NCBI RefSeq assembly: GCF_003925875.1 | Contig: NZ_AP019309.1 | Location: 62,001 to 126,000, forward strand | Direction: 5' to 3' | DNA length: 64,000 bases | Source: Intestinibaculum porci | GTDB taxonomy: Bacteria > Bacillota_I > Bacilli_A > Erysipelotrichales > Coprobacillaceae | Shown here: positions 19,008 to 31,258 of the stretch, piece by piece | How the letters are laid out: each line of letters opens with the position of its first letter | How positions within the stretch are numbered: position 1 is the stretch's first letter | Translations under genes and position numbers: made by a program | Notes under the pieces: generated by a model | The model's database searches: none | Told to the model about the DNA's origin: nothing | What the model saw: only the letters and a program-made list of their open reading frames with translations

Positions 19008-19883
19008 ATGAAATTAGGAGCCATTGAAGGCGGCGGGACAAAATTCGTCGTTGGTGTTGGTGATGAAAACGGTCAGGTATTAGATCGTGCATCATTTCCC
19101 ACAACCACACCAGAAGAAACGATGCAGAAATGTGTAGATTATTTTAAAGATAAGGACGTTGAAGCGATTGGCTTTGGCTGTTTTGGACCGATTGATCCTG
19201 ATCCTAAGAGTCCTACTTATGGGTATGTAACGACGACCCCTAAACCAGGATGGGGCCATTATAATGTAGTTGGAGATTTGAAAAGAGCTTTTCCAGATAC
19301 CCCAATTGGATTTGATACGGATGTCAATGGAGCCTGCTTAGGTGAAGTCTTCTTTGGCGCAGCCAAAGGCTTAGACAGTGCTGTTTATTTTACCATTGGG
19401 ACTGGAATCGGTGGCGGTGCTTACGTCGAAGGGCATCTGCTTCACGGTTTAGTGCATCCAGAAATGGGACATGTCAAATTAGTGGTGCGTGATGATGATC
19501 CTTATAAAGGCAAGTGTCCATATCATGGCACCTGTTTTGAAGGCTTATGCTCTGGTCCGGCTATTGAAGAAAGATGGGGGATTTCCGCTAAAGAATTAGC
19601 ACCAGATCATCCAGCCTGGGACTTAGAAGCCTGGTATATTGGACAGGCGATGGCCAACGTCGTTTTAACTCTCTCTCCTAAAAAAATTATCTTAGGCGGC
19701 GGGGTTATGCATCAGAGTCATTTATTCCCACGGATTCTGAAGTATATGCGTGAAGATTTAAATGGTTATATCCAGAATGATGCCGTCTTACATGATGATC
19801 ACTACATTGTTTGGCCAAAACTTGGTGATAATGCTGGCTTATGCGGCTCACTGGCATTAGCTGTTGATGCACTTAAGAAATAA
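19008..19883 (+). CDS. ROK-family fructokinase
   Basis: This 291-residue sugar kinase phosphorylates fructose with ATP. The N-terminal phosphate loop is AIEGGGTKFVVG. FDTDVNGACLGE supplies the catalytic aspartate, and TIGTGIGGGAYV is the ROK signature. The zinc-binding segment HPEMGH ... CPYHGTCFEGLCSG follows. These match the bacterial fructokinase subgroup. The gene is intact and has its own promoter and terminator. Its 3' half plus downstream DNA is repeated after an IS element (22070-22679). The RpiR-type regulator beyond the IS may control it. Confidence 0.92.
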   Translation: MKLGAIEGGGTKFVVGVGDENGQVLDRASFPTTTPEETMQKCVDYFKDKDVEAIGFGCFGPIDPDPKSPTYGYVTTTPKPGWGHYNVVGDLKRAFPDTPIGFDTDVNGACLGEVFFGAAKGLDSAVYFTIGTGIGGGAYVEGHLLHGLVHPEMGHVKLVVRDDDPYKGKCPYHGTCFEGLCSGPAIEERWGISAKELAPDHPAWDLEAWYIGQAMANVVLTLSPKKIILGGGVMHQSHLFPRILKYMREDLNGYIQNDAVLHDDHYIVWPKLGDNAGLCGSLALAVDALKK

Positions 19884-20040: not shown

Positions 20041-22069
20041 CTCATATTTTACAGCTGATAAGCTAATAAAGGCAAAATACATTGAATACATCAATATATT
20101 TTGCCTTTTCTTTATTCAAATCAGTTTCGTACTTTTTTTAGAATTTACTACCCTTTGAAATTTTTTTAAATATTTTTGAGTAATTATTTTTCGTGAGGGC
20201 TGAAATCCAAAAACTTCAGCTAGGTCATCCACGATTTCTGTCCTTTTAAAGGATGGAATATAGTTTGTTCCATTTATATAGGTTAGGTTAAGATCGCGAA
20301 GTGTATCAAATAATTCTGCACACGTATATTTTTCATTCATATACTTTTTTTCAAGCAAACGATAAACCAGCAGGGCAATGAAGCATATTAACAGGTGACC
20401 GTTGATTGAATGTTCTTTTGATACATACATAGGTCTTGTTTTTAGTTCGCTTTTCATTATTTCAAAGTTTTCTTCAATCTCCCAGCGCTGTTTGTTTGCG
20501 CTAATAATTAATGAGAGATCACTGTCTTCAAGATCGGTAGTTACAGCATAAAAGCCATCGTATTTTTCTTCTTCTGCAATTTTATTTTCGTCAATTGTAT
20601 AAATTGCATCACTAGCTACTTCACCGTTCTTCGTGAAAGATGTTTTAGAAATATAATAGCGTGGGTCGCGTTGGTTGGTTTTTGTAAGTTTTCCTGGGTT
20701 ATCAAGAAGCTTTCTCGCTCTTTCTAGTTTCTTATCTCTGATATGTTTTTGGTAATTGGCAAATTTTCTTGAATAAGTAACTATATAGTTTTCTTCAAGA
20801 GTGTATTTACCGCCTGATGATTCGGATTTTTTGGTTCTTTTTTCCCATTTGTTTTTGAAGAAAACAAGATCTTTTATCTTCTTCTTTACGCCTTCAATTT
20901 CTATAGTTTCTCTATCAGCCAGATCATTAAGATTAAAAGTTCCAGGATATCCCTCAAGCTTCCATCCTTCTGGTGATATTGCCCATTCCTTCATTACTTT
21001 TGACATTTTCTTGATTGGCTGGGTGACAATATAGGCACCATTTTTCTTCATGTCATTATATACCTTATTTTCCCAGCCGTTGAGTCCGGCATCAGCACAG
21101 ACAACAAACTTTGAAACTGCAAAGTCTCTTTCAACTATAGCCTCTAACTCTCTCATGGATTTTTGCTCATTCATATTGCCCTGGAAGACATAATCAGCTA
21201 AAGGGAGAGCATCTGCATCCATAAATAGACCATACTGCACAATAGGATTTGGTCTGTTTTCCTTGCTTTTTCCGTATTTTCTGTAGTCATCCTCTTCTTC
21301 AATCTCAAAATAGAAATTTGTGCAGTCATAGTAGAGAACCGCTGTGTTCTTTTTGAAAAGCTGTGAGCTGTTTTTATAAAGCATTTTTTCAATGAAATAC
21401 CTTTGCTCAGAAAGAACTTTGAGGGAACGGTAAACATCTGCCAGCTCATAATCGGACAAGTCGAGAAATTTATTAGTTGATTTGTACGTAGACAGCTTTG
21501 ATGAAGGATAAATAACCCTAGCGGATACAAGATCGTTAATAATGCTCGCTAAATTGTATTGAAAATTGTACTGGTCTGATATCTCCTTGCAGATATCCTT
21601 AATGCCCAATGAGCATAATATGTTTCTTATGTACATGTATCCGATGTTAAAGAGATTTTCCTTGTCCTTTTCTATTAAATCAGCCTGACTGAGGATTAGT
21701 TTGACGTCTGCCTTGTCCTCACTGTCTTTTTGTCTTAGTCCATCAACATAGAGCTGAAGCTGCCTCATTACTTCATCCCGGGAATCGGTATGATACTTTT
21801 CCATAAGAGTCCTGATATTGCCCAGCTTTTCAGCTACGAAGGTAGATTTCTTTTTAGTGTTAGGATCATAGAAGTCATCGATAACATAGAATGATTCAGA
21901 ATTTTTAGATTTGGTTGATTTTAAACGTTTAGCCATATGTAACCCCTCCCAAACCATTATAACATACATTATGGAACATTACGAGATTAAAAATGGAAAA
22001 AGTTGACAAAAAAACGCTTTTTTAAAGCGTATAATTTAAAATATGAGGTTGTCCAACTGTAAAATACCC
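20041..22069 (-). mobile_element. IS1634-like insertion sequence between the two direct repeats
   Basis: This 2029-bp element fills exactly the space between the two copies of the 610-bp repeat. Its ends share TATTTTACAG and then C/T-TG as short terminal inverted repeats (20045-20057 and the reverse complement near 22054-22066). One transposase gene is carried on the reverse strand. No target duplication is seen, as expected if the flanks came from a crossover between two IS copies. The left junction lies directly after a TATAAT box. Confidence 0.85.
20116..21936 (-). CDS. IS1634-family transposase
   Basis: This 606-residue DDE transposase of the IS4 superfamily, IS1634 type, has an N-terminal region of helices and a catalytic core with YYDCTNFYFE (first Asp), VVCADAGLNGWEN (second Asp) and RWEIEENFEIMKSEL (Glu in the YREK-like helix). 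The frame is intact and the start at 21936 follows GGGAGGGG, so the element could be active. Base composition is AT-rich, like the host. It points away from the RpiR gene. Confidence 0.9.
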   Translation of the reverse strand: MAKRLKSTKSKNSESFYVIDDFYDPNTKKKSTFVAEKLGNIRTLMEKYHTDSRDEVMRQLQLYVDGLRQKDSEDKADVKLILSQADLIEKDKENLFNIGYMYIRNILCSLGIKDICKEISDQYNFQYNLASIINDLVSARVIYPSSKLSTYKSTNKFLDLSDYELADVYRSLKVLSEQRYFIEKMLYKNSSQLFKKNTAVLYYDCTNFYFEIEEEDDYRKYGKSKENRPNPIVQYGLFMDADALPLADYVFQGNMNEQKSMRELEAIVERDFAVSKFVVCADAGLNGWENKVYNDMKKNGAYIVTQPIKKMSKVMKEWAISPEGWKLEGYPGTFNLNDLADRETIEIEGVKKKIKDLVFFKNKWEKRTKKSESSGGKYTLEENYIVTYSRKFANYQKHIRDKKLERARKLLDNPGKLTKTNQRDPRYYISKTSFTKNGEVASDAIYTIDENKIAEEEKYDGFYAVTTDLEDSDLSLIISANKQRWEIEENFEIMKSELKTRPMYVSKEHSINGHLLICFIALLVYRLLEKKYMNEKYTCAELFDTLRDLNLTYINGTNYIPSFKRTEIVDDLAEVFGFQPSRKIITQKYLKKFQRVVNSKKSTKLI

Positions 22070-22522
22070 GGGCACCTGCTTCACGGTTTAGTGCATCCGG
22101 AAATGGGACATGTCAAATTAGTGGTGCGTGATGATGATCCTTATAAAGGAAAATGTCCATATCATGGCACCTGTTTTGAAGGCTTATGCTCTGGTCCTGC
22201 TATTGAAGAAAGATGGGGGATTTCCGCTAAAGAATTAGCACCAGATCATCCAGCCTGGGACTTAGAAGCCTGGTATATTGGACAGGCGATGGCCAACGTC
22301 GTTTTAACTCTCTCTCCTAAAAAAATTATCTTAGGCGGCGGGGTTATGCATCAGAGTCATTTATTCCCACGGATTCTGAAGTATATGCGTGAAGATTTAA
22401 ATGGTTATATCCAGAATGATGCCGTCTTACATGATGATCACTACATTGTTTGGCCAAAACTTGGTGATAATGCTGGCTTATGCGGCTCACTGGCATTAGC
22501 TGTTGATGCACTTAAGAAATAA
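22070..22522 (+). pseudogene. Truncated second copy of fructokinase (C-terminal half)
   Basis: It begins in the middle of the gene at HLLHGLVHPEMGH and runs to the normal stop. An open frame enters from the IS end at ATG 22043, but no ribosome site is present. The ATP loop and catalytic aspartate are missing, so no kinase activity is possible. Nucleotide identity to copy 1 is near total. Confidence 0.9.
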
Positions 22523-22651
22523 GCAGGGCGACCTGCTTTTTCATGTTGTTAGAAAAAAAGAATGGTTTGGTACAATAGATAAGAATCATGCAAAATAACC
22601 TGCCATACAGGTGTTGAATATGAGAAAATGTTACGAAAAGATGTTACGGTG

Positions 22652-22679
22652 TTCCATTTTTATAGAAAATATGTATAAT
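22652..22679 (+). promoter_or_regulatory. Promoter of the RpiR regulator gene, restored by the duplication
   Basis: TTCCAT (22652-22657), 16 bp, TATAAT (22674-22679). In repeat copy 1 the same promoter is separated from its gene by the IS. Copy 2 keeps it attached. Confidence 0.5.
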
Positions 22680-22776
22680 GGACTTTGTAAGAACAAATAA
22701 CTTCTCTTTTCTTATTTTCGACGTTCTTATATGAGGCAGGTGTGGGACCTGTCTTTTTTGTTTTGAGGAGAAGATC

Positions 22777-23628
22777 ATGAATATACTTTTAAAGATCAAA
22801 AATATAAATACATTCTCACGCAGTGAGCAGCTATTAGCTTCTTATATTTTAAAGCATGCAGAAGAAGTGCTATCACTAAGTACAAGAGATTTAGCAGAAC
22901 GCTGTTTTGTGTCCATTGCGACGATTTATCGTTTCCTAGAGAAGCTAGAAATAAAAGGCTACAGTGAGTTTAAAGCGGCTTTATCGGTTGCTTTAGTTAC
23001 TCAAAAAGAAGAGGAAGAGTTTAACTTTAATTTTCCTATTCAGGCCAAAGAAACACCTTTTAAAGTAGTTCAAACGATGAAAGAAGATTATCTGCAGACC
23101 ATTAATACCACAATTGATATGCTCGATTTAGAAACTTTACGACAAGCAGTTGGGGCAATGCGTCAAGCCGAGATTATTGATATCTATGCCACTGCTGGGA
23201 ATTATTATATGGCTCAGAATTTTAAGCTGCAGATGTTAGAAATAGGGGTCAATGTCAATGTTCCAAACCTGGTGTATGAAAAAGGTTTACAGGCTTCCAT
23301 GAGTGATGAAACCCATTTTGCGATTGTCATCACTTATGAAGGACGCGGTGCTAATATTAAAGAAATATTAGGTATTTTACGAGCCCGTCATACCAAGATC
23401 TTACTGATCAGTTCACCAAGGTTAAAGGAAGAAGCGGATTATCATTTGTATATGTTACCGGAAGAACATTATTATCGTAAGCTCTCTGCTTTCTCTAGCC
23501 GTTTAACGACTTTGTATCTGTTAGATACCATCTATCTGACTTACTTTAGCAGTGATTATGATAATCATCTTAAAAAGAAGGAAGAATACTATCATCATCT
23601 GCATCAGTATTTTAAAAGCGAACACTAG
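22777..23628 (+). CDS. RpiR/MurR-family transcriptional regulator
   Basis: This 283-residue sugar-phosphate-responsive regulator has an N-terminal RpiR helix-turn-helix (LAERCFVSIATIYRFLEKLEIKGYSEFK). A C-terminal SIS domain (IIDIYATAGNYYMAQNFKLQ ... FAIVITYEGRGANI ... KILLISS) would bind a sugar phosphate. The position downstream of fructokinase suggests it senses fructose-6-phosphate or a related compound. The start follows GAGGAGAAG. Confidence 0.87.
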   Translation: MNILLKIKNINTFSRSEQLLASYILKHAEEVLSLSTRDLAERCFVSIATIYRFLEKLEIKGYSEFKAALSVALVTQKEEEEFNFNFPIQAKETPFKVVQTMKEDYLQTINTTIDMLDLETLRQAVGAMRQAEIIDIYATAGNYYMAQNFKLQMLEIGVNVNVPNLVYEKGLQASMSDETHFAIVITYEGRGANIKEILGILRARHTKILLISSPRLKEEADYHLYMLPEEHYYRKLSAFSSRLTTLYLLDTIYLTYFSSDYDNHLKKKEEYYHHLHQYFKSEH

Positions 23629-23636
23629 GTTCGCTT
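23616..23636. terminator. Terminator shared by convergent RpiR and dlt-like genes
   Basis: AAGCGAAC / GTTCGCTT stem with an ACTAG loop that contains both stop codons. The T-rich flank favours termination of the reverse-strand operon. Confidence 0.7.
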
Positions 23637-24584
23637 GATGTGATTAGGGACCTGAGCACGGGTCTCTTTTACTTTTCGTTTGTATAAGAGTAAGGAAAGT
23701 TCATAACTGTCATAAAGCGGATCAGCCGCATGGGATTTCAGGTCTGTATGCTTATGCAGATACTGACCGAAATAATCGGTGACTTTCATGGCACCATGAT
23801 AGTTGAGATGATCACCGCCGTCACGACTGTCTTCATCCCAGTTGATATTGAGGGTGGGGATCATATTAAAATCAATGAACGGATAGTGTTTCTTAAAGAG
23901 TTTTGTTAGCTTGTTATGACGTTTGATACTCCATGTTTTTAAACATGGCAGATAGATCATAATGAGCTTCGTATGATGAGCCTTTGTTAAGGTCATAATT
24001 TTTTTCAGGTAATTCAGATTCGTCGTGGTGATCTGATCAGACGGTTTCTTAAACTTCTTAGCAGGTGTGACTTGGGGATAGTAACGGAAGCCTTTCATAT
24101 AATCGGTATGGGTATATTTCATTGTTTTCTGCAGATCTTTTAGTTTTAAGTGTTTCCAGCGATTATGATAACGTAATAAGGGAACCTGATATTCTACGCG
24201 GGAAGATAAATCTTTTGACCAGCTGAGATCCTTGAATAACTCTTCGGTTTCTAAAAAGACATAACGGGGGGATTGGGTCTCATAGATACGGGATAAGAAT
24301 TCATAGGATTCATTGAGTTTCTGAGCAGGGGTTGAGGCATCATAAAGGGTATAGCCATAGTCTTCATAAATCTTCATGGGGGAAATAGAAGAGTAGACCA
24401 GGCTATCTCCTAAAGCGATGGCATCAATGGTGTTCTTGGGCTCAGAATAAATGGCGGAGCTGGTAATATAATCCACACCATAGGCTTTTTTGTTATTACG
24501 AGGCATGAAAATCACGGAGCTGATGACAACCATGATCACCAGCAGGGTGATGAAAAGACTGCTTTTACCAATATTCTTCTTCAT
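23625..24584 (-). CDS. DltD-like protein (SGNH-fold, membrane-anchored)
   Basis: This 319-residue protein has one N-terminal membrane helix (SLFITLLVIMVVISSVIF) and an extracytoplasmic SGNH-like domain. The nucleophile motif is ALGDSLVYSS (Ser61) and the Asp/His pair is GGDHLNYHG near residue 260. DltD acts on the outer face to move the activated amino acid onto teichoic acid. It is shorter than classical DltD (about 390 residues), so it may be a divergent member. It is the last gene of the operon, 9 bp after dltB, with AGGAGG at its start. Confidence 0.82.
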   Translation of the reverse strand: MKKNIGKSSLFITLLVIMVVISSVIFMPRNNKKAYGVDYITSSAIYSEPKNTIDAIALGDSLVYSSISPMKIYEDYGYTLYDASTPAQKLNESYEFLSRIYETQSPRYVFLETEELFKDLSWSKDLSSRVEYQVPLLRYHNRWKHLKLKDLQKTMKYTHTDYMKGFRYYPQVTPAKKFKKPSDQITTTNLNYLKKIMTLTKAHHTKLIMIYLPCLKTWSIKRHNKLTKLFKKHYPFIDFNMIPTLNINWDEDSRDGGDHLNYHGAMKVTDYFGQYLHKHTDLKSHAADPLYDSYELSLLLYKRKVKETRAQVPNHIKRT

Positions 24585-24593
24585 AAAAACCTC

Positions 24594-26168
24594 CTAAAAA
24601 TCCGCATAGATTGGGGCTACAGGGATATAACCAGTGCCATAAGCGCCAAAGATGACGACGGCCATCACTAAGGCATAGTAGAGACTCCAGCGAATAGGCA
24701 AGGGCTGGGCTGCTAAACTTTCACGGACATTGATGCCTTTTTCTTTGAGTAATGACATGACAAAGACAAAGGCTAAAGCTAAGATGAGCACTGATAAATC
24801 ACGATTATCAATGCCTAATGTTAAAACTTCAGAAAGCGAGAATGTAAAGTCATGGATGGTGCGACTTAACATTGCAAAGCCTTGGGAAACTGTTGCACAT
24901 CTAAAGAACATTTCACCGATAAAGATAAAAATACATAACTTGCATGACTGGAAGATGCGATAAGGTTTCGCCTGACGATTGATATGCAGCTTTTTACTTA
25001 GCCATCTGACTGGCGGTTCTATTAAACTTTCACCTAAGATAAAGGTGAAGTGATAGAGACCATAGAAAAGATACGTCCAGCCGGCACCATGCCATAAACC
25101 ATTACAAAACCAGACACAAAATAAAGCGATCGCCCCAGATACTAATGGACCATAATGGTTGCCTAATGGCTTACGCGCTTTTTTGGTCAAAGTTTTGAGA
25201 GGCTTAGATAATGATAAGGGATAGTAAATATAATCTCTAAAGAATGTTCCTAATGTAATATGCCAGCGGGTCCAGAAATCGGAAACGTTTTTCGCAAAAA
25301 ACGGCTGGCGGAAGTTTTCAGGCAAATGAATCTGAAAGACTTCACTGATGCCTAAGACAACATCCATAGTACCTGAGAACTCTAGATACAGCATCATCGT
25401 ATAGCCAAACATTCCTAAAAAGAGGGTTCCGCCATGATAGTGCGTATAGTTGGTGAAAACTAATGTAACGGGAATGTTGAGACGATCAGCGATGACATAC
25501 TTCTTAAAGAGGCCATAGAAAATGCGCTGCAGGCCGAATGTGAGGGAATGAAAGGTGATGGGGTCACCTTTGAATAATTGATCGAGTGTGTCACTAGCAC
25601 GGACAATGGGGCCTTCCATAATCTGGGGGAAGTAGGCCACAAAGAGGGCTAAATGGGGCAATGATTTTTCAGCCTGACGTTTGCCTAAATAGACATCTGC
25701 TAAGTAAGCGATGCACTGCAGGGTATAATAAGAAATACCGATTGGGGCAATGAGGCGGTGAATCTTTAACGGATGCAGTTTAAACAAATAGGCAAAATCA
25801 TTGTAGATGGAACTGAAAAACGGCACGTATTTAAAGGTATAAAGGACGCTTAAAAGCAGTAATACGCCTAATGTCAAAACGGCTTTTTTGCGGCGCTGAT
25901 AGCGCGCTTTGATGGGCTTTCGTAAAGAGCGATCAACCTCTTTGATGGCGTCTTTTTTGTCTTTTTCAATCATCTCTAACCATAGGCCAAAGTAGTGGAT
26001 CGCGAAAGTGGCCAACAGAATATAGATGATGAGCTGTTTAGAGGCCATATAGATAAACAGATAAGACGCTAAAAGCAGGATGTAAGGGCGCAGCTTTCGT
26101 GAAGAAAGCTGATAGATCAGGGCGACAAGCGCGATCGCCGCTAATAATAACGGCTTAAAGTAAGACAT
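24594..26168 (-). CDS. dltB: DltB-like MBOAT acyltransferase
   Basis: This 524-residue polytopic membrane protein belongs to the membrane-bound O-acyltransferase family. The catalytic histidine lies in FCNGLWHGAGWTYLFYG (about residue 358). FPQIMEGPIVR and the RDYIYYPLSLS segment are also family hallmarks. In the D-alanylation pathway DltB takes the aminoacyl group from the carrier protein and passes it across the membrane. It overlaps dltC by one base (TAATG), giving strict translational coupling. Confidence 0.9.
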   Translation of the reverse strand: MSYFKPLLLAAIALVALIYQLSSRKLRPYILLLASYLFIYMASKQLIIYILLATFAIHYFGLWLEMIEKDKKDAIKEVDRSLRKPIKARYQRRKKAVLTLGVLLLLSVLYTFKYVPFFSSIYNDFAYLFKLHPLKIHRLIAPIGISYYTLQCIAYLADVYLGKRQAEKSLPHLALFVAYFPQIMEGPIVRASDTLDQLFKGDPITFHSLTFGLQRIFYGLFKKYVIADRLNIPVTLVFTNYTHYHGGTLFLGMFGYTMMLYLEFSGTMDVVLGISEVFQIHLPENFRQPFFAKNVSDFWTRWHITLGTFFRDYIYYPLSLSKPLKTLTKKARKPLGNHYGPLVSGAIALFCVWFCNGLWHGAGWTYLFYGLYHFTFILGESLIEPPVRWLSKKLHINRQAKPYRIFQSCKLCIFIFIGEMFFRCATVSQGFAMLSRTIHDFTFSLSEVLTLGIDNRDLSVLILALAFVFVMSLLKEKGINVRESLAAQPLPIRWSLYYALVMAVVIFGAYGTGYIPVAPIYADF

Positions 26169-26395
26169 TATTCTTCTTCTAAACGGGTGATCAGCGCATA
26201 GATGGCCTTCGCTGAATTAAAGTTTGCAGGCACAATGTCAACAGCCGGAATTTCGATATCATAAGCATCTTCGATTTCGGAGATCAAAGATAAGATGGTC
26301 AGCGAATCTAAGACGCGTCCATCCACTAAGTTATCACATGTTTTATAGTCAACATCGGGCTGTAATTCTTCTAAAATTTCATAAAGTGTATCCAT
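26168..26395 (-). CDS. dltC: DltC-like aminoacyl carrier protein
   Basis: This 75-residue acyl carrier protein has the 4'-phosphopantetheine serine in VLDSLTIL (Ser31). The helical pattern and length fit DltC. It would be loaded by the ligase two genes upstream. It lies between the PLP enzyme gene (2 bp away) and dltB. Confidence 0.9.
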   Translation of the reverse strand: MDTLYEILEELQPDVDYKTCDNLVDGRVLDSLTILSLISEIEDAYDIEIPAVDIVPANFNSAKAIYALITRLEEE

Positions 26396-26397
26396 AA

Positions 26398-27510
26398 TTA
26401 TTTTCCTCCATTAAGTGTGGCTGTCGGGGTATGGTCGCGGACAACCTGAATTGTTTTTTCATTTTTAATTAAGATGGCTGGCAGCTCTCTAGATAGGAAG
26501 AGCGAAATGCCTTCACACATCGCATAAGCCCCCGCATCTTTAAAGATCAGCTGATCCTTGATCGCTAAATCGGTGAGAGCGATATTACGAATTAAGATAT
26601 CATTGGTCGTACATAAAGAGCCGCAGATCGTATAGTGCTGCGTAGGACCTTCTTTATGGGGATAATGTTCAAGTTTAGGAATATGCATCCCCATCATGCC
26701 GCCGTAATACGTTAACTGATGAATCCCGCCATCAACGATCGCATAATGAGTATTTTTCGTAGTTTTGAGATCCATCACGCTGGTGACATAAAAGCCGCAG
26801 CTGGCAGCGATAGAGCGGCCGCTTTCGATATAGACGGGTATATCAAAGAGCGTTAGTTCTTCACGGATCGCTTGTAAATAAGCTTCTTCATCGAAGTCTC
26901 CAAAGTAAGAGACATTCAGTCCTGGGCCATATTCTAGTTCTTTGATAGAAATCGGTAGATCGCTTATAAAGTCGTGCAGATAAACACATTCCTTATGAAT
27001 TTTCTTCAGGGCATGTTTCTGGGTACCGCTGAAATATTCTAAGCCGATAATCTCCATTTCGGGATCATGGAAAGTACATATCTGACGCACATCCTCTTCG
27101 CTCATACCAAACTGATTTCCGCTTGATAGTCTCAGTAAGCATTGAAAAGAGCGCTTATTTTTTTGGGCGGCTGCCTTTAAAGATTCATACTGATGCATGG
27201 ATTCAATGGTGACGCGTTTAATTGGATGTTTGACTATTTCGGCAATAAAAGCGTCATCTTTATTAACGCCGGAAATGACCATTTTTTCAAAAGGAACCTG
27301 CTGATCCATACAGATCTGCATTTCTCCTAGGGAACAGATTTCATAACGTTCGACTGCATTGATCAGACTTCCAGCAATAAAGGGATTGGCTTTAATCGCA
27401 TAAACAAGATGCGCTGTCAGTTGTTCATGTAAATAAGCAATGCGTTTTTTGAGAATCTCTGTATCAAAGAGATAGAAGGGGGTTTTATACGTGTTTACGA
27501 TAGCGCCCAT
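26398..27510 (-). CDS. Fold-type-III PLP enzyme, DAP/ornithine decarboxylase-like, in the dlt-like operon
   Basis: This 370-residue enzyme has an alanine-racemase-type barrel with the PLP lysine in VYAIKANPF (Lys40). It has the phosphate-binding region YGPGLNVS, an active-site ESGRSIAASCGFYV, and ICGSLCTTNDIL, which matches the cysteine loop of decarboxylases at the dimer interface. The start at 27510 follows GGAGGATTATC and overlaps the ligase gene by 26 bp. Such an enzyme is not part of the classical dltABCD set. It could make the amino acid to be attached, act on a carrier-bound amino acid as BtrK does in butirosin synthesis, or work as a racemase. The sequence alone does not decide. Confidence 0.85.
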   Translation of the reverse strand: MGAIVNTYKTPFYLFDTEILKKRIAYLHEQLTAHLVYAIKANPFIAGSLINAVERYEICSLGEMQICMDQQVPFEKMVISGVNKDDAFIAEIVKHPIKRVTIESMHQYESLKAAAQKNKRSFQCLLRLSSGNQFGMSEEDVRQICTFHDPEMEIIGLEYFSGTQKHALKKIHKECVYLHDFISDLPISIKELEYGPGLNVSYFGDFDEEAYLQAIREELTLFDIPVYIESGRSIAASCGFYVTSVMDLKTTKNTHYAIVDGGIHQLTYYGGMMGMHIPKLEHYPHKEGPTQHYTICGSLCTTNDILIRNIALTDLAIKDQLIFKDAGAYAMCEGISLFLSRELPAILIKNEKTIQVVRDHTPTATLNGGK

Positions 27511-28993
27511 GATAATCCTCCATGAGTTTCTTACGGTCAAGTTTACCGTTTTTGTTAAGCGGGAAGCAGTCTAACTGCATCAGTTTCGCTGGGATCATAA
27601 AGCGTGGTAATTCTTTTAAAAGCTGTGATTTTAATGTTTTATGATCAATATCACCGATATAATAAGCGATCAGCTTCTCTTTTTCTTGATCAAAGAGAGC
27701 GCAGGATGCCTGCACATCTTTTTGATGCAGTAACATCTGATCAATTTCCTCTAATTCAATGCGGTGTCCCATATATTTGATTTGGAAATCGCTGCGTCCT
27801 TTAAAGACATATTCACCTTGTTTATTGAGATAAGCTAAGTCCCCAGTGTTGTAGTATCGCTCTTTATAGCCACGGGTATTTTCTTCAATAAAAGCTGGCG
27901 ACTCATGATTTAAATAGCCTAAGGCTAAACAGCTGCCGCTGACATAGATTTCACCAATGGTATAAGGCTTACTGATGCGTTTTCCGTTCTGACGTAATTC
28001 CACGCGTTTATTTGGGAATGGTTTACCGATCGGCAGTTCTTTCGCATAATCACGATGACGATCGATGATATGGTAAAGCGCATTGCAGGTGATTTCTGTT
28101 GGTCCATAAAGATTCACAAACATCGTCTCAGGCATATGATCGAGATAGTTCTTTAAGTGTTTATAAGGCATCATTTCGCCGCTAAAAAGAATCTTATCGA
28201 CATATTCAGGAACCCTATAGTCCAAACCGTGATAAACACTGATTAAAGTTAAAGCACTGACCGCCCAGATCATTGTGGTGACTTTCTGATCTGACAGGAA
28301 GTCTAATAAAGGAGCGGGCTGACTAAATAGCACTCTTGGTACTAAGACTAAGGTCGCACCGACATTTAACATGGTATAAATGTCTTTGACACAGACATCA
28401 AAATCAAAAGGGGCCTGATTGGCCAGGACATCCTGATTGGTGATATGAAAAAGATCATCGAAGGTGGGAATAAAATCAAGGACACTGCGATGATTAATGA
28501 TCACACCTTTTGGAATACCGGTAGAACCGCTAGTAAAATTGATATACAGCGGATCAAGATCAATCTGATTTTCTAAACACTCCTGTAATAACGATGTATT
28601 GATTTCACTGCTGATGAGTTTTTCATAACGCAGAATCTTCTGATTGGGGAAAAGTTCCATCGCTTTTTGAATATGAGCCTGATCAGTAATGACATAACGC
28701 GCGCTTAAGGCCCGCTCCATTGCCTGTAAGCGTAAATCGGGTAAATCAGTATTAAAGATACAGTAACTATTACCCGATAAGGCAATACCTAACATACTGA
28801 TCACGGCTGGCAGGTCATGATCTAAAAAAATGATCACGGGGGATTGCCGGCTGTAAGCGGCGATCCCGCTGCCAAGCTGTCTGACAGAGTTATGTAACTG
28901 CTCAAAAGTGCACGTATCCCGACCATTGCTTAAGGCAATCGCATCAGGATAACAGCGCGCTGAGCGCTGCAGTAATTCATAAACATTTTTCAT
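27485..28993 (-). CDS. dltA: DltA-like amino acid adenylation enzyme
   Basis: This 502-residue ANL-superfamily ligase activates an amino acid with ATP and loads it on the carrier protein. Visible motifs are FTSGSTGIPKG (A3), APFDFDVCVKDIY (A4, amine-binding Asp), NLYGPTEITCN (A5), YNTGDLAYL (A7) and NKNGKLDRKKL (A10 lysine). In Bacillus DltA the pocket segment reads FCGEVLP, and its cysteine governs D-alanine selectivity. Here it reads LFSGEMMP, so Ser replaces Cys and the substrate may differ. The start at 28993 follows GAAAGGATTG. First gene of a five-gene reverse-strand operon. Confidence 0.88.
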   Translation of the reverse strand: MKNVYELLQRSARCYPDAIALSNGRDTCTFEQLHNSVRQLGSGIAAYSRQSPVIIFLDHDLPAVISMLGIALSGNSYCIFNTDLPDLRLQAMERALSARYVITDQAHIQKAMELFPNQKILRYEKLISSEINTSLLQECLENQIDLDPLYINFTSGSTGIPKGVIINHRSVLDFIPTFDDLFHITNQDVLANQAPFDFDVCVKDIYTMLNVGATLVLVPRVLFSQPAPLLDFLSDQKVTTMIWAVSALTLISVYHGLDYRVPEYVDKILFSGEMMPYKHLKNYLDHMPETMFVNLYGPTEITCNALYHIIDRHRDYAKELPIGKPFPNKRVELRQNGKRISKPYTIGEIYVSGSCLALGYLNHESPAFIEENTRGYKERYYNTGDLAYLNKQGEYVFKGRSDFQIKYMGHRIELEEIDQMLLHQKDVQASCALFDQEKEKLIAYYIGDIDHKTLKSQLLKELPRFMIPAKLMQLDCFPLNKNGKLDRKKLMEDYHGRYRKHV

Positions 28994-29075
28994 AGAATCA
29001 ATCCTTTCGACACCTATCATAAAGGTGTGATGTGGCAAAGTTGTGACAAAACGTCGTTTTCTTTTTCACAATTAC

Positions 29076-29105
29076 ATTATATTGACCTTTTCTTAATAGA
29101 AACAA
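29076..29105 (-). promoter_or_regulatory. Putative promoter of the dlt-like operon
   Basis: On the reverse strand, TTGTTT (29105-29100), 18 bp, TATAAT (29081-29076). The -35 is weak. Confidence 0.45.
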
Positions 29106-29189
29106 GAATAAATTATTAAATGATTCTAAAAAATCATATATTGACATCACAAAGAAAGTGCCTTCATGAAAGTAAGCATAAGTATGTGA

Positions 29190-29267
29190 TTTCGCACTAA
29201 AGTGCGGAAAAAGATGTAAAAATCGCAATACTAACGCTAGGCAAGGTTAAGAGAGCTTTGTACAATA
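29190..29267 (+). promoter_or_regulatory. Upstream module shared with the 13442 operon (copy B)
   Basis: Inverted repeat TTTCGCAC / GTGCGGAAA (29190-29210), then AT, AAAAA and TCGCA blocks and GTACAATA (29260-29267), in exactly the spacing of copy A. A second TATAAT at 29292 could be an additional promoter for telA. Confidence 0.65.
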
Positions 29268-29321
29268 TTAAGTAAGGAAAGCGTAATAATGATATAATGA
29301 AAAACGAAGGGAGATGTTCCT

Positions 29322-30431
29322 ATGGATGAATATAAACCAACATTAACGTTTGATGATGATAGTTCTAAGCCTGAAGAAAAACAGGCAGATGTCCTGGCGC
29401 AGTCTGAAGATTTCAGCCCCGAAGAGCAGCGCCAGATTGATGAATTTGTGTCTAAAATTGATTTGATGAATGCAACGCAGATTTTAAACTATGGCTTAGG
29501 GGCGCAGAAGCGTTCAGTTGAATTCTCTGACCAGGCTTTAAAAAGCGTACAAACGAAAGATTTTGATGAAGTCGGTGCTTTATTAGCCAATATGGCTGGA
29601 CAGATTGAATCATTTGGTGAAGAAGAGAAGCATGGCATTAAAGGCTTCTTTGCGAAAAAGAAGAGTCAGTTAGATGTGATGAAAGCGCAGTATGCGACAA
29701 CCGAAGAAAACTTAAATAAAATTGCCAATGAGCTAGATCAGCATCGTTTTACCTTGATGAAAGATATTGCCATGTTAGATCATCTTTATAAGCAGAATGA
29801 AGGCTACTTTAAAGAATTATCAATGTATATTGCAGCGGGCAAGAAAAAGCTTGCCGAAACGGAAAATAAAGATATTCCAGCTCTGCAGGATAAAGCGCGT
29901 TTAAGCGGGAAGCAGGAAGATGCTCAGCAGGTCAGTGATCTGATCGATCGGGCTAATCGTTTTGAAAAGAAGATTCACGACTTGGAATTAACCCGCACCG
30001 TATCATTGCAGATGGCTCCGCAGATTCGCTTAGTGCAGAATGCGGATACGATGATGGCGGAAAAGATTCAGTCAACAATTGTAAATACCTTACCATTATG
30101 GAAAAATCAGATGGTTTTAGCGTTAGGTGTCCATCATGCCAGCTTAGCTGCCAAAGCGCAGCAGTTGGTCACGGATACCACTAATCAGATGTTAAAGGAA
30201 AATGCAGACTTATTAAAAACAACAACGATTGAAGCGGCGCAGGCCAATGAGCGCAGCATTGTCGATTTAGAAACATTAAAGCATACCAATGAAGCTTTAA
30301 TTTCTACCATTGATGAAGTCAAACGTATCCAGGAAGAAGGCATTAACCAGCGCCTGGAGGCAGAAAAAGAATTACATACCATTGAGCAGCAGCTCAAGCA
30401 GAAATTATTAGAAGCGCATCATAAGGAGTGA
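29322..30431 (+). CDS. telA: TelA-family toxic anion resistance protein
   Basis: This 369-residue, largely helical protein of the TelA/YaaN family has an acidic N-terminus and long coiled-coil stretches (for example LDQHRFTLMKDIAMLDHLYK). It also has the characteristic QMAPQIRLVQNAD and IVNTLPLWKNQMVLALG segments. The family is linked to resistance to tellurite, antimicrobial peptides and other envelope insults; the mechanism is unresolved. It overlaps the next gene region and is followed by an XpaC-like gene, the same pair as xpaC-yaaN in Bacillus. The promoter module upstream is shared with the small envelope operon at 13.4 kb. Confidence 0.9.
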   Translation: MDEYKPTLTFDDDSSKPEEKQADVLAQSEDFSPEEQRQIDEFVSKIDLMNATQILNYGLGAQKRSVEFSDQALKSVQTKDFDEVGALLANMAGQIESFGEEEKHGIKGFFAKKKSQLDVMKAQYATTEENLNKIANELDQHRFTLMKDIAMLDHLYKQNEGYFKELSMYIAAGKKKLAETENKDIPALQDKARLSGKQEDAQQVSDLIDRANRFEKKIHDLELTRTVSLQMAPQIRLVQNADTMMAEKIQSTIVNTLPLWKNQMVLALGVHHASLAAKAQQLVTDTTNQMLKENADLLKTTTIEAAQANERSIVDLETLKHTNEALISTIDEVKRIQEEGINQRLEAEKELHTIEQQLKQKLLEAHHKE

Positions 30432-30436
30432 TGACC

Positions 30437-31258
30437 ATGAAAATGAATACTGGGAAAGCCATTATCCTGATTCTCGTCATCTACGGAATTGCTAGTTCAG
30501 CTTTTGGTGATACCGTCGGGGCCATGGCCGCTTTGGCTTTCTTTCTTTATCTGGTTTTCTTTAAAAAGGTAAAAGGCCAGGAGAAGGTCCTTGATTATAC
30601 CAAACGTGGCGGTCTGGAAGTGGCGCAGGTGGATGCTCTTTATCGCCAGTACAGTCCGATTATTGAAAACTATAAAACGACCCCTCTTTCCATGTTTATG
30701 GAAACGCTCCATAAAAGTGAACAGCAAGTGGTTAATGACTTAAACAGCCTGCTTTTAGCGGGGCGCTTCCAGCAGGCCAATATCTCTGAGGGACAGTTTG
30801 TCGTTGAAGAAAACGAAGAAGAACGTTTTGTCCAGAAAGAAGAGAAACAGCCAGAAATCTTTACCATTATTGATGGCCTTTTGCCATTAGTTAAGAATAA
30901 AGAGGTCTATGGAGCGATTCTCAGCATCCAGGAAGACTGTCACCTGATGCTTAATGAAACGTTCCAAAGCGAGATTGAAGAAAGTGCGATGAACAAATTC
31001 AACACTTTCTATTTACCAAAAACGATTGAACAGCTTGTCTATTATAAGAAGCTATTAAGCAAATCTTCTTTATCTGATCAGCAGCATAATGCGATGATCA
31101 GTGTTGAAGGGGCGATTATTTCTATTAGTCATATCTTTAAAGATTACGTTGAATCGGTTGATTCAGCAGAAGCGTTTGATATGGAAGCGGAAGCCAAAGC
31201 CATTAAACAAATGGCCGATAGCGACCGCCCACATCAGGATTTTGATTGGAGGGCTTAA
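30437..31258 (+). CDS. XpaC-like protein (5-bromo-4-chloroindolyl phosphate hydrolysis family)
   Basis: This 273-residue protein has one or two N-terminal membrane helices ([19 protein letters not shown] and [15 protein letters not shown]). A helical cytosolic domain follows, with a C-terminal half ([19 protein letters not shown]) that matches the XpaC family. Despite the family name, phosphatase activity is not established. The start at 30437 is chosen for AGGAG 8 bp upstream; an in-frame GTG at 30428 overlaps the telA stop. It probably forms a membrane complex with TelA. Confidence 0.8.

Follow-up and report, generated by a model that had tools for sequence, protein, structure and literature searches.

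D-alanylation sets surface charge and cationic antimicrobial resistance in Gram-positive bacteria, with D-alanine as the standard ester. The Dlt system (DltXABCD) combines a stand-alone ligase, a small carrier protein, a membrane-bound O-acyltransferase (MBOAT), and an SGNH-family partner in one operon, and it follows an acyl-tyrosine shuttle logic. Here, we examined a window of 64,000 nucleotides from Intestinibaculum porci (NZ_AP019309.1, positions 62,001 to 126,000), in which the open reading frames (ORFs) reveal a five-gene minus-strand operon of related build at 23625-28993. Its genes encode, in order, a ligase, a fold-type-III pyridoxal phosphate (PLP) enzyme, a carrier protein, an MBOAT, and an SGNH protein (Table 1). 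An earlier reading made from the letters alone (the sequence-only reading) had described this order with overlaps or spacings of at most 9 bp, and all five ORFs are indeed there, the junctions from the ligase onward being a 23 bp overlap, a 2 bp gap, a 1 bp overlap, and a 9 bp gap. This operon type is real, conserved, and widespread, and we favor, with moderate confidence, its being a cell-surface aminoacylation pathway with decarboxylation on the carrier. By four tested features it is not a dlt operon, yet it probably works like one.

Comparison with described systems

When set against DltXABCD, the operon adds a PLP decarboxylase, and its ligase has a wholly different pocket and scores well under the DltA cut-off (260 bits for TIGR01734; cut-off 560). 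Likewise, the MBOAT is below the DltB cut-off (139 bits for TIGR04091; cut-off 375), and family scans of the SGNH protein gave neither a Pfam match nor an NCBIfam DltD match. There is also no DltX, as a search of 22500-30500 for a separate DltX-like ORF with a C-terminal FXYXXF returned only the MBOAT itself, to which the shuttle peptide is fused. Here, the operon resembles the PatA/PatB pair of peptidoglycan O-acetylation, in which the MBOAT ends in an FXYXXF-like hexapeptide that serves as the acyl shuttle and the SGNH protein is separate, while Dlt systems carry the shuttle on DltX (PMC12148441). However, PatA/PatB and other MBOAT-SGNH pairs have no carrier protein and are evidently acyl-CoA users (PMC12148441), whereas the donor in our operon is presumably an aminoacyl carrier protein. 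A carrier and a fused shuttle peptide in one system is a combination not described in that paper. An xxYxxF/Y motif at the extreme C-terminus is found in 89 of 91 MBOATs from operons with the PLP gene (the PLP class) and in all 11 from the sibling operons described below. The MBOAT has both the catalytic histidine and the shuttle hexapeptide of an MBOAT-SGNH acylation system, and its partner has an SGNH fold in which the GDS and DxxH-type residues do not vary across the aligned set. In fact, the SGNH protein model (pLDDT 88.7) consists of an N-terminal helix and an SGNH hydrolase domain, and it matches TesA-type esterases, PatB (Z 11.2), and, weakly, DltD. Judged by sequence, then, the MBOAT and SGNH proteins are not DltB and DltD equivalogs, the MBOAT has a PatA-type C-terminal shuttle motif, and we class the operon as a hybrid of Dlt and PatA, not as a dlt operon. 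The label "dlt-like" given by the sequence-only reading thus suits the aminoacylation route and not the export proteins.

The remaining genes recall pathways of natural-product synthesis. VinN/VinL/VinO, the FlvN type, and BolO/BolC/BolN each share with the operon an AMP ligase, a stand-alone carrier, and a fold-III PLP decarboxylase that acts on a carrier-bound acidic amino acid. Among them, VinN/VinL/VinO is a precedent for on-carrier decarboxylation (PMC11284099), and BolO/BolC/BolN converts aspartate to a β-alanyl carrier protein (PMC7756342). They differ from our operon in supplying polyketide or peptide assembly lines, and their ligases have an arginine near position 330 (GrsA numbering throughout) and no Lys239. 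In butirosin synthesis, BtrK turns Glu-S-BtrI into GABA-S-BtrI, where GABA is γ-aminobutyrate (PMC7857480), though that product passes to an aminoglycoside. In the exosortase A-associated set (TIGR03098/TIGR03099), the ligase also adjoins a decarboxylase with a phosphopantetheine protein nearby. However, that set is proteobacterial, lies among glycosyltransferase genes, has a pocket without Lys239, and shows no annotated MBOAT or SGNH gene in the stretches seen; the operon proteins score far below both models (153 bits against a cut-off of 592, and 133 against 478). As for butirosin, BtrJ, which does the loading there, is not known as a member of the AMP ligase family to which the operon ligase belongs. 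Related proteobacterial loci were seen on an Aureimonas plasmid (L205) and on S. meliloti pSymB (L199). At L205, the exosortase-A-type ligase has an arginine aligned to VinN 330/331 and the decarboxylase has a Cys-Thr loop, and this type of module may, from its sequence, also make a β-aminoacyl carrier. Among open-licence papers, we found nothing relevant on such operons or on β-alanine or GABA teichoic acids.

The PLP enzyme and the ligase pocket

The predicted structure of the PLP enzyme (pLDDT 88.9) has BtrK as its top match (7ru7; Z 38.2), tied with diaminopimelate (DAP) decarboxylases, which agrees with the kinship to BtrK noted from the letters alone. The lysine motif YAIKANPF and the decarboxylase-type cysteine loop named in the same reading are both present and conserved. 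This loop reads GSLCTxND in nearly all operon PLP enzymes, and a Cys-Thr pair also occurs in exosortase-A decarboxylases (GCLCTPLD) and in a VinO-like enzyme (GPLCTPGD) from a cluster with methylaspartate mutase and polyketide synthase, whereas LysA has CCESGD. The enzyme therefore combines the decarboxylase fold, the PLP lysine, and the Cys-Thr loop of the carrier-dependent BtrK/VinO type. Moreover, compared with LysA, its Arg137-Gln143 loop is shorter by about 20 residues, which could leave room for the carrier arm. In the tree, the operon enzymes group together (93/98) and separately from LysA, with a deep placement that is not resolved. A BLAST-type search, which found no other decarboxylase, had favored the PLP enzyme as the cell's LysA, but this was overturned by a hidden Markov model (HMM) search that located the true LysA elsewhere in the genome (444 bits; 23% identical to the operon enzyme). 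Because of that gene, the operon enzyme is not the lysine enzyme, and it scores only 150 bits against TIGR01048 (cut-off 298), with CT replacing CE. Alanine racemase and polyamine enzyme were ruled out as identities by the domains, the cysteine loop, and the tree, and the polyamine-type carboxynorspermidine decarboxylases of relatives sit in separate operons. Sequence and model together support a BtrK-type decarboxylase.

More conspicuously, the ligase pocket (positions 235, 236, 239, 278, 299, 301, 322, 330, 331, and 517) reads DVKWLSLCNK, against D L M S F C T V A K in S. aureus DltA. The serine that the sequence-only reading saw in place of the DltA cysteine is real (Ser301), and yet it is only one part of the change, since Lys239, Cys330, and Asn331 likewise stand where S. 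aureus DltA has Met239, Val330, and Ala331. A single Cys-to-Ser explanation is too narrow; by alignment, the whole pocket has been replaced, including an invariant Lys239. The co-occurrence of the serine with the PLP gene, which the sequence-only reading had proposed to check, is strongly upheld. Across 100 PLP-linked ligases, all with Ser301, the pocket reads D V K W L/M/I S L/V/I C N K, with a lone departure (Ala at position 299). Positions 235, 236, 239, 278, 301, 330, 331, and 517 are the same in all 100, as is Asp at position 233, while just 68 of the 494 columns in the alignment are invariant overall. This code is absent from all 13 sibling ligases that have no PLP gene in view. Ser301 by itself does not set the PLP class apart, because a ligase at a contig end with no PLP gene in view (L054; D A K W T S L G V K) has it too. 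In the tree, PLP-class and sibling ligases make one supported group apart from DltA, whose branch is long.

Gene linkage and sibling operons

A contig scan queried with the single PLP protein returned no relatives, but an alignment query of GTDB species genomes succeeded with 347, the best 80 of which were taken as loci. In all, we examined 101 loci with the PLP gene, a few of them the same genome counted twice; as loci were picked by PLP-enzyme similarity, the linkage figures describe this subfamily and not all fold-III decarboxylases. The PLP gene adjoins a ligase in every one of the 101, an obligate linkage, and the carrier, MBOAT, and SGNH genes are present throughout except in a few contig-end or divergent cases. 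Since the exact five-gene order that was pointed out in I. porci recurs in at least 75 loci (75/101), the operon is not a chance arrangement. Several loci have the MBOAT and SGNH genes ahead of the ligase, and two with enough flank have no recognized MBOAT. The system sits in gut anaerobes of the Erysipelotrichia and Clostridia, with hosts that include Erysipelotrichia, Lachnospiraceae, Oscillospiraceae, Acetobacterium, Anaerocolumna, and Lacrimispora, among others; cultured bacteria with the operon include Sharpea azabuensis, Faecalicoccus pleomorphus, and Anaerocolumna. Within the family it occurs in 10 of 43 genomes, and also in further genomes of the order and class, the nearest named relatives being Sharpea azabuensis and S. 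porci (Coprobacillaceae; PLP enzyme 56% identical). In about 30 loci, a crude motif test placed an OmpR-type response regulator close to the operon; those pairs that were examined are genuine two-component systems, which fits with an envelope-stress function. Four loci (L148, L149, L158, and L180) have two MBOAT-SGNH pairs around a single ligase-PLP-carrier set, hinting by their layout at two acceptors for one acyl donor. Two adjacent ligase matches precede the PLP gene in L142 and L157.

Two classes of sibling operon keep the ligase-carrier-MBOAT-SGNH set and have no PLP gene. One lies mostly beside serS and tadA (L104-L112, e.g. L104:5973-10263), and its nine ligases have the code SMSWLALDIK, one with small differences. 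This code lacks both the amino-binding Asp235 and Lys239 and has Asp330; such ligases may directly load either an ω-amino acid or a substrate that is not an amino acid. In β-alanine domains, Asp235 is likewise lost and an Asp gained at 330/331, which is a lead rather than a test. The other class has an Asp/Glu-superfamily racemase (TIGR00035, above cut-off) ahead of the set, and by its sequence possibly makes D-Asp or D-Glu surface esters. As the codes of the PLP, serS, and racemase classes differ, the pocket changes with the neighboring modifying enzyme, and the Lys239 common to the PLP and racemase classes points to an acidic amino acid. Lys239 marks glutamate-activating domains, and in SrfA-A1 a Lys-to-Gln change shifts use to glutamine, again a lead and not a test. 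Mutual exclusion of the PLP and serS classes is not claimed (both in 1 of 43 genomes; Fisher p = 0.31), and a cargo shared between them was dropped as a candidate because the MBOAT tree is insufficiently resolved.

Proposed pathway, alternatives, and genome setting

From these parts, we infer the substrate, order of steps, product, acceptor, and role as follows. The ligase would adenylate the side-chain carboxyl of a dicarboxylic amino acid, with aspartate the likeliest and glutamate the next candidate, and load the residue onto the carrier, where the PLP enzyme would strip the free α-carboxylate to give a β-alanyl (or GABA) thioester. The MBOAT would pass the acyl group to the tyrosine of its own C-terminal shuttle peptide at the outer face, and the SGNH protein would esterify a surface polymer, plausibly a (lipo)teichoic acid of the glycerophosphate type, which would gain positive charge. 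Two carboxyls are required in the substrate, because the decarboxylated product needs one to stay on the carrier, and Lys239, the comparison with the racemase class, and the BtrK/VinO/BolN precedents make side-chain loading of Asp or Glu likeliest. Between the two products, we have a slight and weakly grounded preference for β-alanine over GABA. A dlt-like route for a residue other than D-alanine, as the sequence-only reading envisaged, is probable from the pocket and the PLP linkage, but the racemized residue or lysine that it also considered is less likely than β-alanine or GABA. Several points weigh against this pathway. VinN activates the side chain with Asp230 and basic residues at 330/331 (PMC7756342), and a VinN-like relative has an arginine aligned to position 330, while the operon ligase lacks these residues and retains Asp235. 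For this reason, activation could instead be at the α-carboxyl, which would make on-carrier decarboxylation of Asp or Glu impossible. Moreover, Trp278 is common to the sibling classes and hence uninformative, and the operon has no direct link to genes for teichoic acids.

The same decoration would result if the steps ran in the other order, with the PLP enzyme first converting a free amino acid (e.g. glutamate into GABA or aspartate into β-alanine) and the ligase then activating the ω-amino acid. We consider this unlikely. Fold-III decarboxylases do mostly use free amino acids, and the Asp235 kept by the ligase serves in amino-group binding; however, the invariant Lys239 would meet no second carboxylate on β-alanine or GABA, the Cys-Thr loop is typical of enzymes on conjugated or carrier-bound substrates, and direct ω-amino acid loading better suits the serS-class pocket. 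Even less probable is meso-DAP as substrate, activated at one end and decarboxylated at the other to leave a lysyl ester, despite the structural closeness of the PLP enzyme to DAP decarboxylase and the DAP supply implied by LysA in the genome, since 32 of 32 aligned orthologues have Cys-Thr where LysA has Cys-Glu and the tree sets the operon enzymes apart. Very improbable, in our view, is racemase or epimerase activity of the PLP enzyme, with the operon serving as a variant of D-alanylation or D-aminoacylation fed with the resulting D-amino acid. While a weak Ala_racemase_N match and the separate Asp/Glu-type racemase of sibling operons could be read this way, the enzyme has a decarboxylase C-terminal domain, an invariant catalytic cysteine loop, and only decarboxylases as its closest folds, and the ligase lacks the D-Ala pocket residues of DltA.

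A more serious possibility, if still short of an even one, is that on-carrier decarboxylation proceeds as proposed but serves another acceptor, such as peptidoglycan, capsule, or the glycosylated head group of a lipoteichoic acid. This overlaps with the favored pathway, and so the confidences in the two do not add to one. It would suit an MBOAT and SGNH protein that are not DltB/DltD equivalogs, a shuttle motif fused as in PatA and similar systems, and the glycosyltransferase surroundings of the related proteobacterial sets. On the other side, though not decisive, are three LtaS/MdoB-type glycerophosphotransferases encoded in the genome and DltB as the sole curated NCBIfam match of the MBOAT.

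The absence of a second dlt operon in the window, noted by the sequence-only reading, holds across the genome (single contig, 3.21 Mb, 98.9% complete), where a protein search and the DltA model at HMM sensitivity found no second DltA-like ligase. None of 43 family genomes and none of 120 drawn from the phylum has a DltA above the curated cut-off, which the positive controls B. subtilis and L. lactis both exceed. Just upstream of the ligase start, an inverted repeat is a possible operator, judging from its sequence. At the other end, an RpiR/MurR-type regulator gene (22777-23628, +) converges on the SGNH gene with a 4 bp overlap. Beyond it lie an intact ROK-family kinase gene (19008-19883), a DDE transposase gene (20116-21969), and a truncated ROK copy (22043-22522) that matches the intact gene over 300 bp at 98% identity; this sequence arrangement suggests either that an insertion came with a duplication or that recombination left a remnant. 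The window has no Rfam or tRNA features at default thresholds.

Table 1. Operon features and racemase-class loci (window positions, except where a locus is named)
Feature	Position	Strand	Remark
DltA-like stand-alone amino acid adenylating ligase	27485-28993	-	ATG start; Pfam AMP-binding 1.7e-54
Ligase Lys239 (GrsA numbering)	codon 28385-28387	-	
Ligase Ser301	codon 28181-28183	-	
Fold-III PLP decarboxylase	26398-27507	-	Pfam Orn/DAP/Arg decarboxylase, N + C domains
PLP lysine (YAIKANPF)	codon 27391-27393	-	invariant in 32 orthologues
Catalytic Cys (loop GSLCTTND)	codon 26611-26613	-	invariant in 32 orthologues
Stand-alone carrier protein	26168-26395	-	PP-binding match
Phosphopantetheine serine (LDS)	codon 26303-26305	-	LDS invariant in 10 aligned relatives
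MBOAT acyltransferase	24594-26168	-	Pfam MBOAT 8.4e-12
WHG catalytic His of MBOAT	codon 25089-25091	-	invariant in MBOAT alignment
Acyl-shuttle hexapeptide PIYADF, MBOAT C-terminus	24597-24614	-	Tyr codon 24606-24608
SGNH-family extracytoplasmic acyltransferase, N-terminal transmembrane helix	23625-24584	-	predicted structure; invariant GDS, Asp, His
GDS serine of SGNH protein	codon 24402-24404	-	invariant in aligned set
Catalytic His of SGNH protein	codon 23808-23810	-	invariant in aligned set
Inverted repeat ACACCT-TTATGAT-AGGTGT, ligase leader	29010-29028	-	perfect 6-bp arms; read from sequence
Racemase-class loci	L113:5396-10692, L114:3161-8317, L115:5120-10301		ligase code DAKWAGLGMK

In broader terms, to which we give roughly even credence, these gut anaerobes would have a surface system that decarboxylates an acidic amino acid on its carrier and exports it as a β-alanine or GABA ester by way of a carrier-fed PatA-type MBOAT. 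Sibling operons would exchange one substrate module for another (a decarboxylase, an Asp/Glu-type racemase, or none of these), and the ligase pocket would follow. Outside natural-product synthesis, the operon would then offer a directly testable case of decarboxylation on a carrier, together with a pocket code predicted for a new specificity, and it suggests an MBOAT-SGNH export machine that takes interchangeable substrate modules. If many Erysipelotrichia and Clostridia do use β-alanine or GABA, their surface chemistry, peptide sensitivity, and immune recognition would obey other rules.

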